This document shows, piece by piece, positions 49,603 through 53,421 of a DNA stretch of 62,905 nucleotides. Source of the DNA: a virus; the IMG/VR virus record IMGVR_UViG_3300047175_000033, positions 1-62,905 of that record, one strand, 5' to 3'. The first letter of the stretch is position 1. Each line of letters begins with the position of its first letter. Made by a program: the position numbers and the translations under genes. Under the pieces are notes generated by a model. That model searched no databases. It was not told the DNA's origin and worked only from the letters and a program-made list of their open reading frames with translations.

Positions 49603-50616
49603 ATGTCATCCATCCGTAACACCACCCTGCTGTACCGCCCGAGCCTGTCCATCTGGACGGCGCGCAAGCTGGACAAGGCCGAGAGCGCCAAGGTCAACAA
49701 GGACAACGGCGCAGTCGAGGGCGCGGCCAACGTACACAAGCAATTGCTCCCCGATTCCAAGGAGCTGCTGAGTGTGCAGAAGTGGGCGAATTCGTTCCGC
49801 ACTTTCATCTACACAAGCACGTCGCCGTGGGATGATGCGGGCTGGCGTATCCGTAGCGCCGCCGGGCACATGGAGTTCATGGCCGAGGTGGGTGACAGGC
49901 TGGCAGAAGGTGACCTGCTGGTGGACGCGTTCGTGGATGCGTACCTGCTCGAAGTGGTCAAGGCTGAGGTGACGCTCGGGCATATGTTCCAGCGCAGCGA
50001 CTACCCCGGCGAGCAGGAGGTGCGTACCAAATTCAAGTTCGTGGTGGACTGCATGCCCGTGTCGAGCGCGGACGACTTCCGTATTGTCGACGGCGGCATT
50101 CCCCAGGAAGAAGTGGACCGGCTGGTGAAGGTGACCCAGTCGTCCGTGGAGGGCCGGATACAGGGCGCCATGACCGAGGCTTACGAGAAGCTGTACGGCG
50201 TGGTCTCGAAGATGGCCAACACGCTCGAACAGTACGGCGCGGGGACTGTCAAGAAGTTCAACGACTCGCTGGTGGAGAACATCGTGGAGATTGTGGGCGT
50301 GATGCCGGCACTGAACCTCACGGGTGACCCGCACCTGACGGCGCTCGCCAGTGACGCCCAGCAGCTGGCCCAGTATTCGCTGGTCGACCTGCGCAAGAGT
50401 GACACGGTGCGCGACGCGGCGATCAACGACGCCCGCAATCTGGCCACCAAGTTCAAGGGCTTTGTGTCCGCATCGATCGCCGACACGACGCCGGTACAGA
50501 AGGCCGCGCCCAAAGAGATCGGCCGCACGGTGGCCGTCACCCCGGAACTGCCGGTGATCCCGAGCAACGTGGTGAACATGAAGAGCAAGAAGGCGCTGTT
50601 CGCGGACATGCTGTAA
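49603..50616 (+). CDS. First protein of the MoxR/VWA module (DUF3150-like)
   Basis: A 337-residue protein behind AACTTGTTAGGAGAACGTGAC. RNTTLLYRPSLSIWTARKLDKAES and ADDFRIVDGGIPQEEVDRLVK, with a long helical C-terminus, resemble the DUF3150-type partner that phages encode beside CobS-like ATPases and CobT-like VWA proteins. It may be the substrate adaptor of the chaperone pair encoded next. Family assignment is tentative. Confidence 0.7.
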   Translation: MSSIRNTTLLYRPSLSIWTARKLDKAESAKVNKDNGAVEGAANVHKQLLPDSKELLSVQKWANSFRTFIYTSTSPWDDAGWRIRSAAGHMEFMAEVGDRLAEGDLLVDAFVDAYLLEVVKAEVTLGHMFQRSDYPGEQEVRTKFKFVVDCMPVSSADDFRIVDGGIPQEEVDRLVKVTQSSVEGRIQGAMTEAYEKLYGVVSKMANTLEQYGAGTVKKFNDSLVENIVEIVGVMPALNLTGDPHLTALASDAQQLAQYSLVDLRKSDTVRDAAINDARNLATKFKGFVSASIADTTPVQKAAPKEIGRTVAVTPELPVIPSNVVNMKSKKALFADML

Positions 50617-50629
50617 CCATTTACCAACC

Positions 50630-50659
50630 GGACATTTCGGAACAGACACCGGAATGTCC
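50630..50659 (+). repeat. Dispersed intergenic hairpin, copy 7
   Basis: An 11-bp stem with one G-T pair and an 8-base loop. It lies between the first two genes of the MoxR/VWA module and is followed by CTCGCTAGGAGCTGTGACC and the ATPase start. Confidence 0.87.
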
Positions 50660-50679
50660 ACTCGCTAGGAGCTGTGACC

Positions 50680-51774
50680 ATGGCTATCAAACTGAAAGAG
50701 ATGACCCCGATCCTGATCCGCAACTACATGGCGCGGACCAACACATTCTTTTCCGGCAAGCCGGCGCTCGGCAAGACGGAGACGATCGAGGCATTCGTCG
50801 CCAAGATGCAGCAGCGCATCGAGAACTTCCGCGCGTGGTACTTCTATGCGCCGACGATGTCGCCGATGGATATTCAGGCGAGCGCGCCGGACCCGGAGAC
50901 GGGCCTGCTGCGTCTGTACAACAACGAGGCACTGCCTAACGCGTACCGTGAGCCGGACGCGACGGGCATCATGTTCCTGGGCGAGCTGCCCAACGCCGAC
51001 CCGACCACGGCCAAGCTGCTGCAGAAGTACGTGAACGGCGAGGACATGAGCGGTGTGCTGCGCAAGCCCAAGGGCGTGATCGTGATCGCGGACGGCAACC
51101 GGATCGAGGACAAGTCAGGCGTGCAGCAGCAGGGCCGTGCGTTCATGTCGCGCTTTGAGCAACACGAGGTGTACAGCGACGCGAACGACAACACCGAGTA
51201 CGCATCGAAGCACGCCTGGCATCCGATGGTGCAGACCTTCTTCAAGGACAACCCGACGCTGATCGACAACTACGATGCTGTGTTCCAGACGAGCGCTGCC
51301 GCAGCTGCGCCCACACAGACGCAGTCCGAAGAAGGGCGGCGCGGAATCTGGGCGAACATGCGCAGCTGGGAGCGCATCAGCCGCAAGGAGTACGCAGCCG
51401 ACGAGATCGATTCGCCCGTGACGCTGGCCGAGTGCGTGGGCAATCTGGGCACGGGCGTGGGCACGGCGTACGATGCGCATAAGCGGGTGCTGGCGAGCCT
51501 CGTGTCGTTCGATACGATCATGGCCGACCCGCACAACGCGCAGGTGCCGACCGCCATGGATGAGGTGTATCAGGTGGCGATGATCGTGTCGCTGCGGTGC
51601 AAGTCGGACCAGATGCCGGCGGTGCGTGCGTATGGTGAGCGCCTGCCGCTGGAGATGCAGGCTGTGATGCTGCGCCAGCTGCACGTGCGCAAGGACATCA
51701 CGATCGGCACGACTGACGCGTATGTGAAGTGGATCGCCAACCCGCAGCTTTCCAAGCTGTTGAACGCGCGTTAA
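50680..51774 (+). CDS. MoxR/CobS-like AAA+ ATPase
   Basis: A 364-residue ATPase. Walker A GKPALGKTE lies at residues 26-34, Walker B-like IMFLGELPNADPTTAKLLQ at about 95-113 and a sensor-1 Asn in VIVIADGNRIEDKSG near 135. The MoxR group acts as chaperones that remodel or insert metals into partners using VWA proteins. The ATG is preferred to the GTG six bases earlier on ribosome-site spacing. A VWA partner is encoded at 52267. Confidence 0.85.
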   Translation: MAIKLKEMTPILIRNYMARTNTFFSGKPALGKTETIEAFVAKMQQRIENFRAWYFYAPTMSPMDIQASAPDPETGLLRLYNNEALPNAYREPDATGIMFLGELPNADPTTAKLLQKYVNGEDMSGVLRKPKGVIVIADGNRIEDKSGVQQQGRAFMSRFEQHEVYSDANDNTEYASKHAWHPMVQTFFKDNPTLIDNYDAVFQTSAAAAAPTQTQSEEGRRGIWANMRSWERISRKEYAADEIDSPVTLAECVGNLGTGVGTAYDAHKRVLASLVSFDTIMADPHNAQVPTAMDEVYQVAMIVSLRCKSDQMPAVRAYGERLPLEMQAVMLRQLHVRKDITIGTTDAYVKWIANPQLSKLLNAR

Positions 51775-51784: not shown

Positions 51785-51985
51785 ATGCCGAAGTACAGGG
51801 TGCTGATTGAAGAGGTGGTGCAGTATCTGGTCGAGGTCGAGGCACCTGAGATGGCAGCGGCTGGCGGCGTGGCGATGGAGGTGATGCGCGAGACCGATGA
51901 CCGCCAGCGCTACCTCCATGCCGTGTCGGGTCTTGAAGTGGCCCATGTGTACAGAGAGGGCAAGGTATTGCCCGCAACTTGCTAG
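51785..51985 (+). CDS. DpnD/PcfM-like small protein
   Basis: A 66-residue protein. MPKYRVLIEEVVQYLVEVEAPEMAAAGGVAMEVMRE matches the pattern of the DpnD/PcfM family of small mobile-element proteins of unknown function. It has an AAGGAG site overlapping the ATPase stop and lies within the MoxR/VWA module. Confidence 0.7.
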   Translation: MPKYRVLIEEVVQYLVEVEAPEMAAAGGVAMEVMRETDDRQRYLHAVSGLEVAHVYREGKVLPATC

Positions 51986-51994
51986 GAGATTGTG

Positions 51995-52270
51995 ATGCAC
52001 ACCATCAAGGCGAACGGGGGCAGGCTGACGATCCTGCACCAGCGCAGCTTCGAAGAGATTCACGACCGGCCGCACATCACGCGGTGGGTGGGCCACGACC
52101 ACGGCCAGCCGATGGCCAAGTGGGCCGTCTACTACCTGCTGGGCAGGCAGTCCCGCATCCGCTGCAACCTGCACGACACGTTGCGCGGTGCAATCCAGCA
52201 GGCCACCCGCGTCGCCCATATGAACATGGGCGCTACCCGTTGCCTGCAACGCGAGCGGAGGGCAGCATGA
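51995..52270 (+). CDS. Hypothetical protein in the MoxR/VWA module
   Basis: A 91-residue basic protein behind the AACTTGCTAGGAGATTGTG leader. A His-rich stretch, HDRPHITRWVGHDHGQPMAKWAVYYLLG, and a basic helical end. Its stop overlaps the VWA start (ATGA). No family is recognised. Confidence 0.65.
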   Translation: MHTIKANGGRLTILHQRSFEEIHDRPHITRWVGHDHGQPMAKWAVYYLLGRQSRIRCNLHDTLRGAIQQATRVAHMNMGATRCLQRERRAA

Positions 52271-53421
52271 CACAGAAAACTGACATCGCGTCGGCCGCCG
52301 CTGTGCGGCTCACGCTCAAGCATTACTTCTGGACCGAGATTTACTACAGCATGAACGTGGTCGAGGCCACGCCCGAAGAGGTGGCCGAAGGGATCGAGAC
52401 CGAGGCCACGGACGGCGTGACGCTGTGGATCAACCGGGCGCACTTCGCGAAGCTGCCGATCGACCAGCAGGTGAGCGAGATCGTGCACGAGCTGGCCCAC
52501 AAGATTCTGCTGCACCCGACCCGGCGCGGCGCGCGTGACCCGATGCTGTGGAACATCGCATGCGACCACGCCGTCAACACCATGATGAAGACCAACGGGT
52601 TTTATGTTGGGCCTGACTGGGTGTGTGATATGAAGTACAACGGCTGGCTGGCTGAGGCGATCTACGCCGACCTTGCCAAACAGCAGAAGGAGAATGAAAA
52701 GAACGGCGGCGGGGGTCAGGGTCCGCAGATGCCCAAGGGCAGGCAGGACATCAAGCCGCCCAAGGCCGCGTCACCCGAAGAGGTGGCCAAGCACGAGGAC
52801 GAGGTGAAGGCGCTGGTGGACCGGGCGATTGCCAATGCCAAGGCACGCGGTGACCTGCCCGCCGGCATCGAGCAGGGCGTGGTGCAGGCGTACAAGCCGG
52901 TGAAGGAGTCCTGGTATAACCAGCTCCATCGCTACATGCAGTCGCTCAGCACGTCCACCTACAACTGGGCGCGCATCAACCGGCGGGCGCTGCTCACGCA
53001 TGGGGTGTTCGCACCGCTGCACTATGCCGAGGCGCTGGGGGAAGTGGCGCTGTTCATCGATACCTCGGGGTCGTGCTTCCGTGCGGCGCAACAGGCCAAC
53101 TTCGCAGGGCACCTGAACGCGATCCTCGCCGAGGCCAAGCCGCGCAAGGTGCGCATGTACTACTTCGACACCTCGGTGTATCCCGGCGCCGAGATCGAGG
53201 CAGGTGAGATCGACATCGTGACGAAGCCGAAGGGCAACGGGGGCACCTCGTTCGTGCCGATCTTCGATGAGCTGGAGCGCGAAGGCATCCAGCCCGAAGT
53301 GTGTATTATCCTGACCGACCTCGATGGCCGGTTCCCGAAGCGCGAGCCGGATTATCCTGTGGTATGGGCCAGCATCGCCGACAAGCGCGTACCGTTCGGC
53401 GATGTGATTCACATCGAATAG
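52267..53421 (+). CDS. VWA-like metallopeptidase-domain protein (DUF2201/CobT-like)
   Basis: A 384-residue protein. Residues 1-115 carry a zinc-peptidase-like VHELAHKILLHPTRR motif at about 73-87, followed by CDHAVN. Residues about 140-215 are a charged linker. A VWA-like domain starts at ALFIDTSGS near 261, with the MIDAS DxSxS pattern, and ends in CIILTDLDGRFP. This is the DUF2201 architecture. With the AAA+ ATPase it should form a MoxR-VWA chaperone pair. Confidence 0.85.
   Translation: MTQKTDIASAAAVRLTLKHYFWTEIYYSMNVVEATPEEVAEGIETEATDGVTLWINRAHFAKLPIDQQVSEIVHELAHKILLHPTRRGARDPMLWNIACDHAVNTMMKTNGFYVGPDWVCDMKYNGWLAEAIYADLAKQQKENEKNGGGGQGPQMPKGRQDIKPPKAASPEEVAKHEDEVKALVDRAIANAKARGDLPAGIEQGVVQAYKPVKESWYNQLHRYMQSLSTSTYNWARINRRALLTHGVFAPLHYAEALGEVALFIDTSGSCFRAAQQANFAGHLNAILAEAKPRKVRMYYFDTSVYPGAEIEAGEIDIVTKPKGNGGTSFVPIFDELEREGIQPEVCIILTDLDGRFPKREPDYPVVWASIADKRVPFGDVIHIE

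Follow-up and report, generated by a model that had tools for sequence, protein, structure and literature searches.

Why should a virus carry genes for a MoxR-type ATPase next to a gene for a peptidase fused to a VWA domain? The question is raised by one locus of IMGVR_UViG_3300047175_000033, a viral IMG/VR record of 62,905 nt, which was analysed over its whole length (hereafter, the window). Five open reading frames (ORFs) follow one another there on the plus strand: gene A (DUF3150-like, 49603..50616, 337 aa), gene B (AAA+ ATPase, 50680..51774, 364 aa), the small ORFs C (51785..51985, 66 aa) and D (51995..52270, 91 aa), and gene E (metallopeptidase-VWA, 52267..53421, 384 aa). An earlier note on this DNA (hereafter, the original prediction) had described them as a phage-encoded chaperone module under one promoter. 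The five ORFs were found where it had placed them, and its descriptions of A as DUF3150-like, B as MoxR-type and E as a DUF2201-type protein were supported, whereas its reading of one small ORF as DpnD/PcfM-like and its single promoter were not.

The main result is that A, B and E are carried together by phages, by plasmids and in bacterial contigs. Loci were selected by a search with E, taking the best 80 of 570 viral and the best 80 of 329 bacterial ones. Within the fetched viral loci, A was present in 60 of 80 and B in 73 of 80; once near-identical loci had been removed, 45 of 62 contained A. A search based on A found seven viral loci, and all seven also have B and E. The bacterial loci contained A in 75 cases and B in 74; some of the five without A or the six without B end at a contig boundary. 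The order B-A-E was observed in 71 of the 75 A-bearing bacterial loci (two with split reading frames). On plasmids, a tblastn search of the 72,556 records of PLSDB revealed E on 62 and A on 21, and each of these 21 also carries E, which, judged from the match coordinates, lies within about 1 kb of A. Across 83 dereplicated loci, the distance matrices of A, B and E were correlated with r of 0.76, 0.85 and 0.85, the largest value among 999 permutations being 0.19. The joint recurrence of all three genes in many unrelated records rules out chance for A, B and E, and A is a genuine, recurrent third part of the module. The co-conservation of the three genes on which the original prediction depended is thus observed; its idea of a MoxR ATPase acting with a VWA protein fits as well, but "phage-encoded" proved too narrow for a module of plasmids and bacterial contigs. 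E itself was found in 613 of 50,697 phage records, and a megablast search of the 9.5-kb region against phages gave no match.

Motif conservation was assessed in dereplicated family alignments of 45 (A), 53 (B) and 61 (E) proteins from the loci, each supplemented with the window protein. The B protein matches phrog_1297, annotated as "ATPase", at 2.4e-36, and its family profile matched the AAA domains of Midasin (6e-38), ClpA-type rings (1e-12) and NorQ (9e-9) among solved structures. Based on these matches, B is predicted to be an AAA+ ATPase of the MoxR/Midasin class, in agreement with the MoxR-type ATPase of the original prediction. Its Walker A motif, GKPALGKT (50755..50778), fits the pattern GxxxxGK[ST], with Gly31 kept in 52 and Lys32 in 53 of the 54 family members. 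Residues N140, R158 and R228 are kept in all 54; we take N140 to be the sensor-1 Asn and the two arginines to be the conserved Arg motif. The Walker B motif (50968..50985) ends in Gly-Glu, Asp101 being replaced by Gly. The Asp is found in 52 of 54 B proteins, including those of the close relatives L017 and L027, and Gly occurs only in the window and in locus L035. A sequencing slip is unlikely because these are two separate contigs.

Gene E starts within an ATGA overlap with the end of ORF D. Its protein was assigned by Pfam to DUF2201_N (1.9e-30; 106.9 bits, cut-off 23.2) and DUF2201 (1.6e-20; 73.9 bits, cut-off 26.4), which identifies it, at the level of sequence, as a fusion of a DUF2201_N metallopeptidase with a DUF2201 VWA domain and agrees with the DUF2201-type peptidase-VWA protein originally predicted. 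The HExxH motif, HELAH, is encoded at 52486..52500. Among 62 E proteins, its first His and its Glu are kept in 60 and its second His in 62, while His83 is kept in 60 and Asp100 in 62. The first part of the MIDAS motif, DTSGS, is encoded at 53059..53073 and is completed by T327 (53245) and D351 (53317); all five MIDAS residues are kept in 62 of 62 proteins. Judging from these alignments, the catalytic motifs of the module are under strong constraint. In the AlphaFold model of E (predicted local distance difference test, pLDDT, 88.1), the VWA domain was recognised by fold, the best VIA-align match having Z 12.6 at a root-mean-square deviation (rmsd) of 3.0 over 153 aligned residues, and it matches the MIDAS domain of MDN1/Rea1. 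The metallopeptidase part was not covered by the VIA-align matches listed, and no Foldseek title listed names such a peptidase. A profile search gave weak matches to MJ1213 (0.0055) and to an M48 peptidase (0.0067), and E is regarded as a putative zinc metallopeptidase on the strength of its motif. It should be noted that the PHROGs label of the E family (phrog_1314) is "HNH endonuclease" and that this label is widespread on E homologues in public phage records. We consider it unsupported, as the Pfam DUF2201 match and the HExxH and MIDAS motifs speak otherwise.

Gene A begins with an ATG at 49603 preceded by a Shine-Dalgarno sequence, although a longer ORF from 49576 is possible. The window protein itself gave no match in Pfam, but five of 16 members of its family matched DUF3150 (PF11348) at E <= 0.1, the best at 1.5e-7. 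Its AlphaFold model (pLDDT 88.3) is alpha/beta in its N-terminal part and helical in its C-terminal part, and the best Foldseek match of this model is a viral "DUF3150 domain-containing protein" (8.7e-18). Judged by its relatives and its modelled fold, the original assignment of A as DUF3150-like appears to hold. Foldseek against the PDB gave nothing at E <= 0.001, and the A profile found nothing better than 0.056 among solved chains. VIA-align matches reached Z 10.9 (rmsd 2.8, 113 aligned) over the helical part only, a level that is common for helical bundles. No name was obtained from NCBIfam, where the sole weak match was Csx10 (0.0026), to the A protein of locus L183.

The surroundings of the triad are largely genes of DNA metabolism or transfer. 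In the window, it is followed on the plus strand by genes for a DNA polymerase (54680-56584), a helicase (58926-60542) and an exonuclease (61059-61634), and the genes for the portal (head-tail adaptor family) and the major head protein lie on the minus strand. Helicase and then DNA polymerase genes are located downstream of the B-E pair in SBP1 and EcP1, and a DNA polymerase gene is located downstream in RHph_TM3_14A. In plasmid pBMC401 and in P. dioscoreae plasmid pIII, type IV secretion system (T4SS) genes stand directly after the triad; the Rhodovastum and Variovorax plasmids carry the same B-A-E block. The 80 bacterial loci contained Gp157 in 17, RNase H in 18, RadC in 4, SSB in 4 and RecT in 2 cases, counts that are not independent because many of the loci are from related Acidobacteria. 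A Pfam scan of 92 hand-chosen bacterial neighbours, taken mainly from the first 150 of 195 candidates with a few added, gave Gp157 (12), RNase H (6), RadC (4) and T2SSE (4) as the commonest families. The Gp157 and RNase H surroundings were sought in the viral loci and not found there. Among 90 viral neighbours hand-chosen from 164, the first 25 of 51 Pfam families were mostly nucleic-acid and nucleotide genes.

Part of this module is already known. A pair of a MoxR AAA+ ATPase and a metallopeptidase-vWA protein was described in jumbo phages, with virion assembly proposed as its role (Iyer et al. 2021, PMC7824862). Its members, a MoxR ATPase and a vWA protein with an N-terminal metallopeptidase domain, are of the same kinds as B and E, but neither a DUF3150 partner nor plasmids are mentioned in the accessible text of that paper (PMC7824862). 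Gp24 and gp25 of phage N4 are adjacent homologues of B and E (E being 32.5% identical across 90% of the query), whereas the N4 record has no A. A table of proteins common to N4-like viruses gives gp24 a Y under two of its three methods, with a star under the third, and gives gp25 a Y under a single method of the three (PMC7650795); the function of both is given as unknown in PMC2784036 or left blank in the sections available (PMC7650795, PMC2784036). The literature searched, mostly as titles and the beginnings of abstracts and with most subscription journals outside its coverage, yielded no description of the triad or of DUF3150, and no passage on the module was found in the accessible parts of a CRISPRi-ART paper (PMC11879866) or an antisense paper (PMC12571901). 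The B-E pair is therefore already in print, and what is new here is A as a third part and the triad on plasmids.

Better-studied relatives indicate how such a machine could work. The AAA+ domains of Midasin/Rea1 are the closest solved sequences to B, and its MIDAS domain resembles the fold of the E VWA domain. To our knowledge, Midasin/Rea1 has no fused zincin. It also differs in being one giant eukaryotic chain, with a role in the assembly of pre-60S ribosomes (PMC7159879). VWA proteins act as partners of MoxR rings; in the NorQ/NorD system, which has nitric oxide reductase as its client, the density that plugs the pore of the ring was assigned to the VWA domain (PMC9976466). NorQ/NorD thus shares with B and E a MoxR-class ring and a VWA partner and provides a lead for the mechanism. 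We know of no peptidase domain or DUF3150 partner in that system. The proteins p618 and p892 of Acidianus two-tailed virus were reportedly treated by Scheele et al. in 2011. They are likewise a viral MoxR-vWA pair (PMC7824862, PMC7159879) but are described as having no peptidase domain (PMC7824862).

Based on the above results, we suggest that A, B and E form an intracellular protein-remodelling machine of mobile elements, serving establishment or DNA metabolism, and give this proposal an even chance of being right. By analogy with the MoxR/Midasin class, B would form an ATP-driven ring, onto which the VWA domain of E may dock via its MIDAS site, coupling the motion of the ring to the client, by analogy with NorQ/NorD. 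The HExxH part of E, its motifs being intact, could cut the client or a stretch pulled from it. A, as its linkage to the other two suggests, may be an adaptor that picks or holds the client. A more specific and more tentative version, which we consider less likely than not, is that A, B and E make up a so far undescribed ATP-dependent three-part protease common to phages, conjugative plasmids and further mobile elements. It would pull out and cleave a component of the host nucleoprotein and so let incoming DNA replicate or establish itself.

Several observations weigh against this proposal. N4, SBP1, EcP1, PA5oct, phiFa, CR9, S-TIM5 and RHph_TM3_14A have B and E, but A is missing from their entire records. 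In Av-05, B is present, while A is absent from the record and E from the part of it that was retrieved. Co-inheritance may partly reflect the shared ancestry of the carrier elements, which the permutation control leaves in. The loci compared were the nearest 80 of 570 viral and 80 of 329 bacterial ones, and the neighbour tallies come from hand-picked sets of proteins. The window B protein lacks the Walker B Asp (Gly-Glu, codon 50980-50982), and the HExxH motif is lost in two of 62 E proteins. A note of electrospray ionisation tandem mass spectrometry (ESI-MS/MS) on B of phage PA5oct favours a link to the virion, as does roseophage RPP1, in which the genes for four virion proteins lie close to those of the gp24/gp25 homologues (PMC4193335). 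Because several phages have B and E without A, not every B-E pair needs A; B and E form the core, and the loci with the triad make up a large subset. The possibility that A lies elsewhere in N4-like records was rejected, as 20 of 22 records had no A match and the other two were positive controls. A B-E pair was also observed on Synechocystis plasmid pSYSA (L198, 3958-6236), where genes annotated as a MoxR ATPase and a VWA protein overlap at their ends and no A is present in the record.

The PA5oct and RPP1 observations fit best with virion assembly or processing, where the pair would be a chaperone and a peptidase maturing structural proteins, as was proposed for jumbo phages by analogy with Acidianus two-tailed virus (PMC7824862). 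We nevertheless regard this as unlikely. The full triad occurs on conjugative plasmids with T4SS genes, and A and E occur together on 21 PLSDB plasmids; since conjugative plasmids make no virions, the triad is not solely a virion-assembly device. In addition, the window triad lies on the plus strand just upstream of the DNA polymerase gene, away from the minus-strand portal and capsid genes, none of the first 25 of 51 Pfam families found in the 90 viral neighbours is structural, and N4 gp24 and gp25 belong to the middle transcripts according to the text available (PMC4193335). The triad thus probably helps foreign DNA take hold in the cell rather than only building virus particles. The spread over phages and conjugative plasmids, both of which need to survive entry, would also suit counter-defence or host take-over, the machine disarming or cutting one particular host protein, for instance a defence factor. 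Strong motif conservation says nothing about the client, and we rate this explanation as improbable to the same degree as virion assembly. The absence of a PADLOC match is uninformative on it, as that library holds defence genes and not counter-defence genes.

The same library bears on a defence or conflict system carried by mobile elements and aimed at competitors, conflict systems being among the roles named in the original prediction. Peptidase-containing MoxR-VWA systems have been predicted to be conflict systems (PMC7159879), and the pSYSA pair is found near PIN-like, HepT-like, GNAT/DUF1778 and DUF262 genes. On the other hand, PADLOC 2023 gave no match to the five window proteins or to four of five relatives (the fifth gave a weak Csx10 match, 7e-4), and the presence of the pair on the list common to N4-like viruses suggests a general role in infection (PMC7650795); a conflict role therefore seems very unlikely to us. 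Least probable of all is the maturation of a metal enzyme as in NorQ/NorD, which the original prediction had also offered. B does match NorQ (9e-9), but no metalloenzyme partner was recognised among the neighbour families (first 25 of 54 bacterial and first 25 of 51 viral), and a fused HExxH domain is not a known feature of NorD. The third partner and the plasmid life of the triad shift the question from a role in the virion to the target that phages and plasmids alike would need to have remodelled, and the plasmid copies allow tests of the triad that need no phage.

Of the two small ORFs between B and E, ORF C matched DpnD/PcfM (PF14207) at E = 0.14 with 12.6 bits against a 25-bit cut-off (0.12 in a relative), which does not support the label given earlier; C is conserved only in the close relatives L017 and L027. 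ORF D had no match in any locus compared.

Nor could one promoter for all five genes be upheld. A scan of 49100-54800 gave no sigma-70-like site, compared with 1.6 (standard deviation 1.4) in shuffled sequences. Upstream of A lies a repeated element of 44 nt, TTACACTTGwAGTTATTCG... (49539..49582, plus strand), with a second copy, 73% alike, at 43438-43481. Both copies are upstream of genes, and the first is a possible promoter of A or phage promoter; it is unlike the sigma-70 consensus. Moreover, A is separated from B by a 30-nt hairpin, GGACATTTCGG-8 nt-CCGGAATGTCC (50630..50659, plus strand), which is followed by B's own Shine-Dalgarno sequence.

This hairpin is one of eight GGACA...TGTCC hairpins on the plus strand of the window (40828, 41945, 43567, 44025, 44797, 47612, 50630 and 57116), compared with 0.08 expected per window in 50 runs of first-order Markov simulation. 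They are 29-32 nt long, lie at 40.8-57.2 kb upstream of early genes, and in five of eight cases precede a Shine-Dalgarno-like stretch and a start codon. The hairpins gave no Rfam match at E <= 0.5, and none in the window is directly followed by a T-tract. An N4-type giant virion RNA polymerase is a conceivable reason for them; the 2255-aa ORF considered (16679-23446, minus strand) matched only PHROGs of unknown function, its C-terminal part matching giant ones (phrog_11358, 1.3e-34). Possibly, the hairpins are phage-specific 5' leaders or regulator sites. Counts of 11, 4 and 2 such hairpins were obtained in three related phages, and the records behind L017, L034 and L035 hold members of the family; further pattern matches, one each in G013 and MinM2, were excluded on visual inspection as non-hairpins. 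A copy after A is also present in the L034 and L035 records, whereas no such hairpin was detected in the A-B gap of L017. The search pattern fixed the outer five pairs only. At the inner six, pairing is kept in 138 of 150 cells, and each shows two to four pair types; the stems differ between phages yet keep pairing, i.e., they covary.

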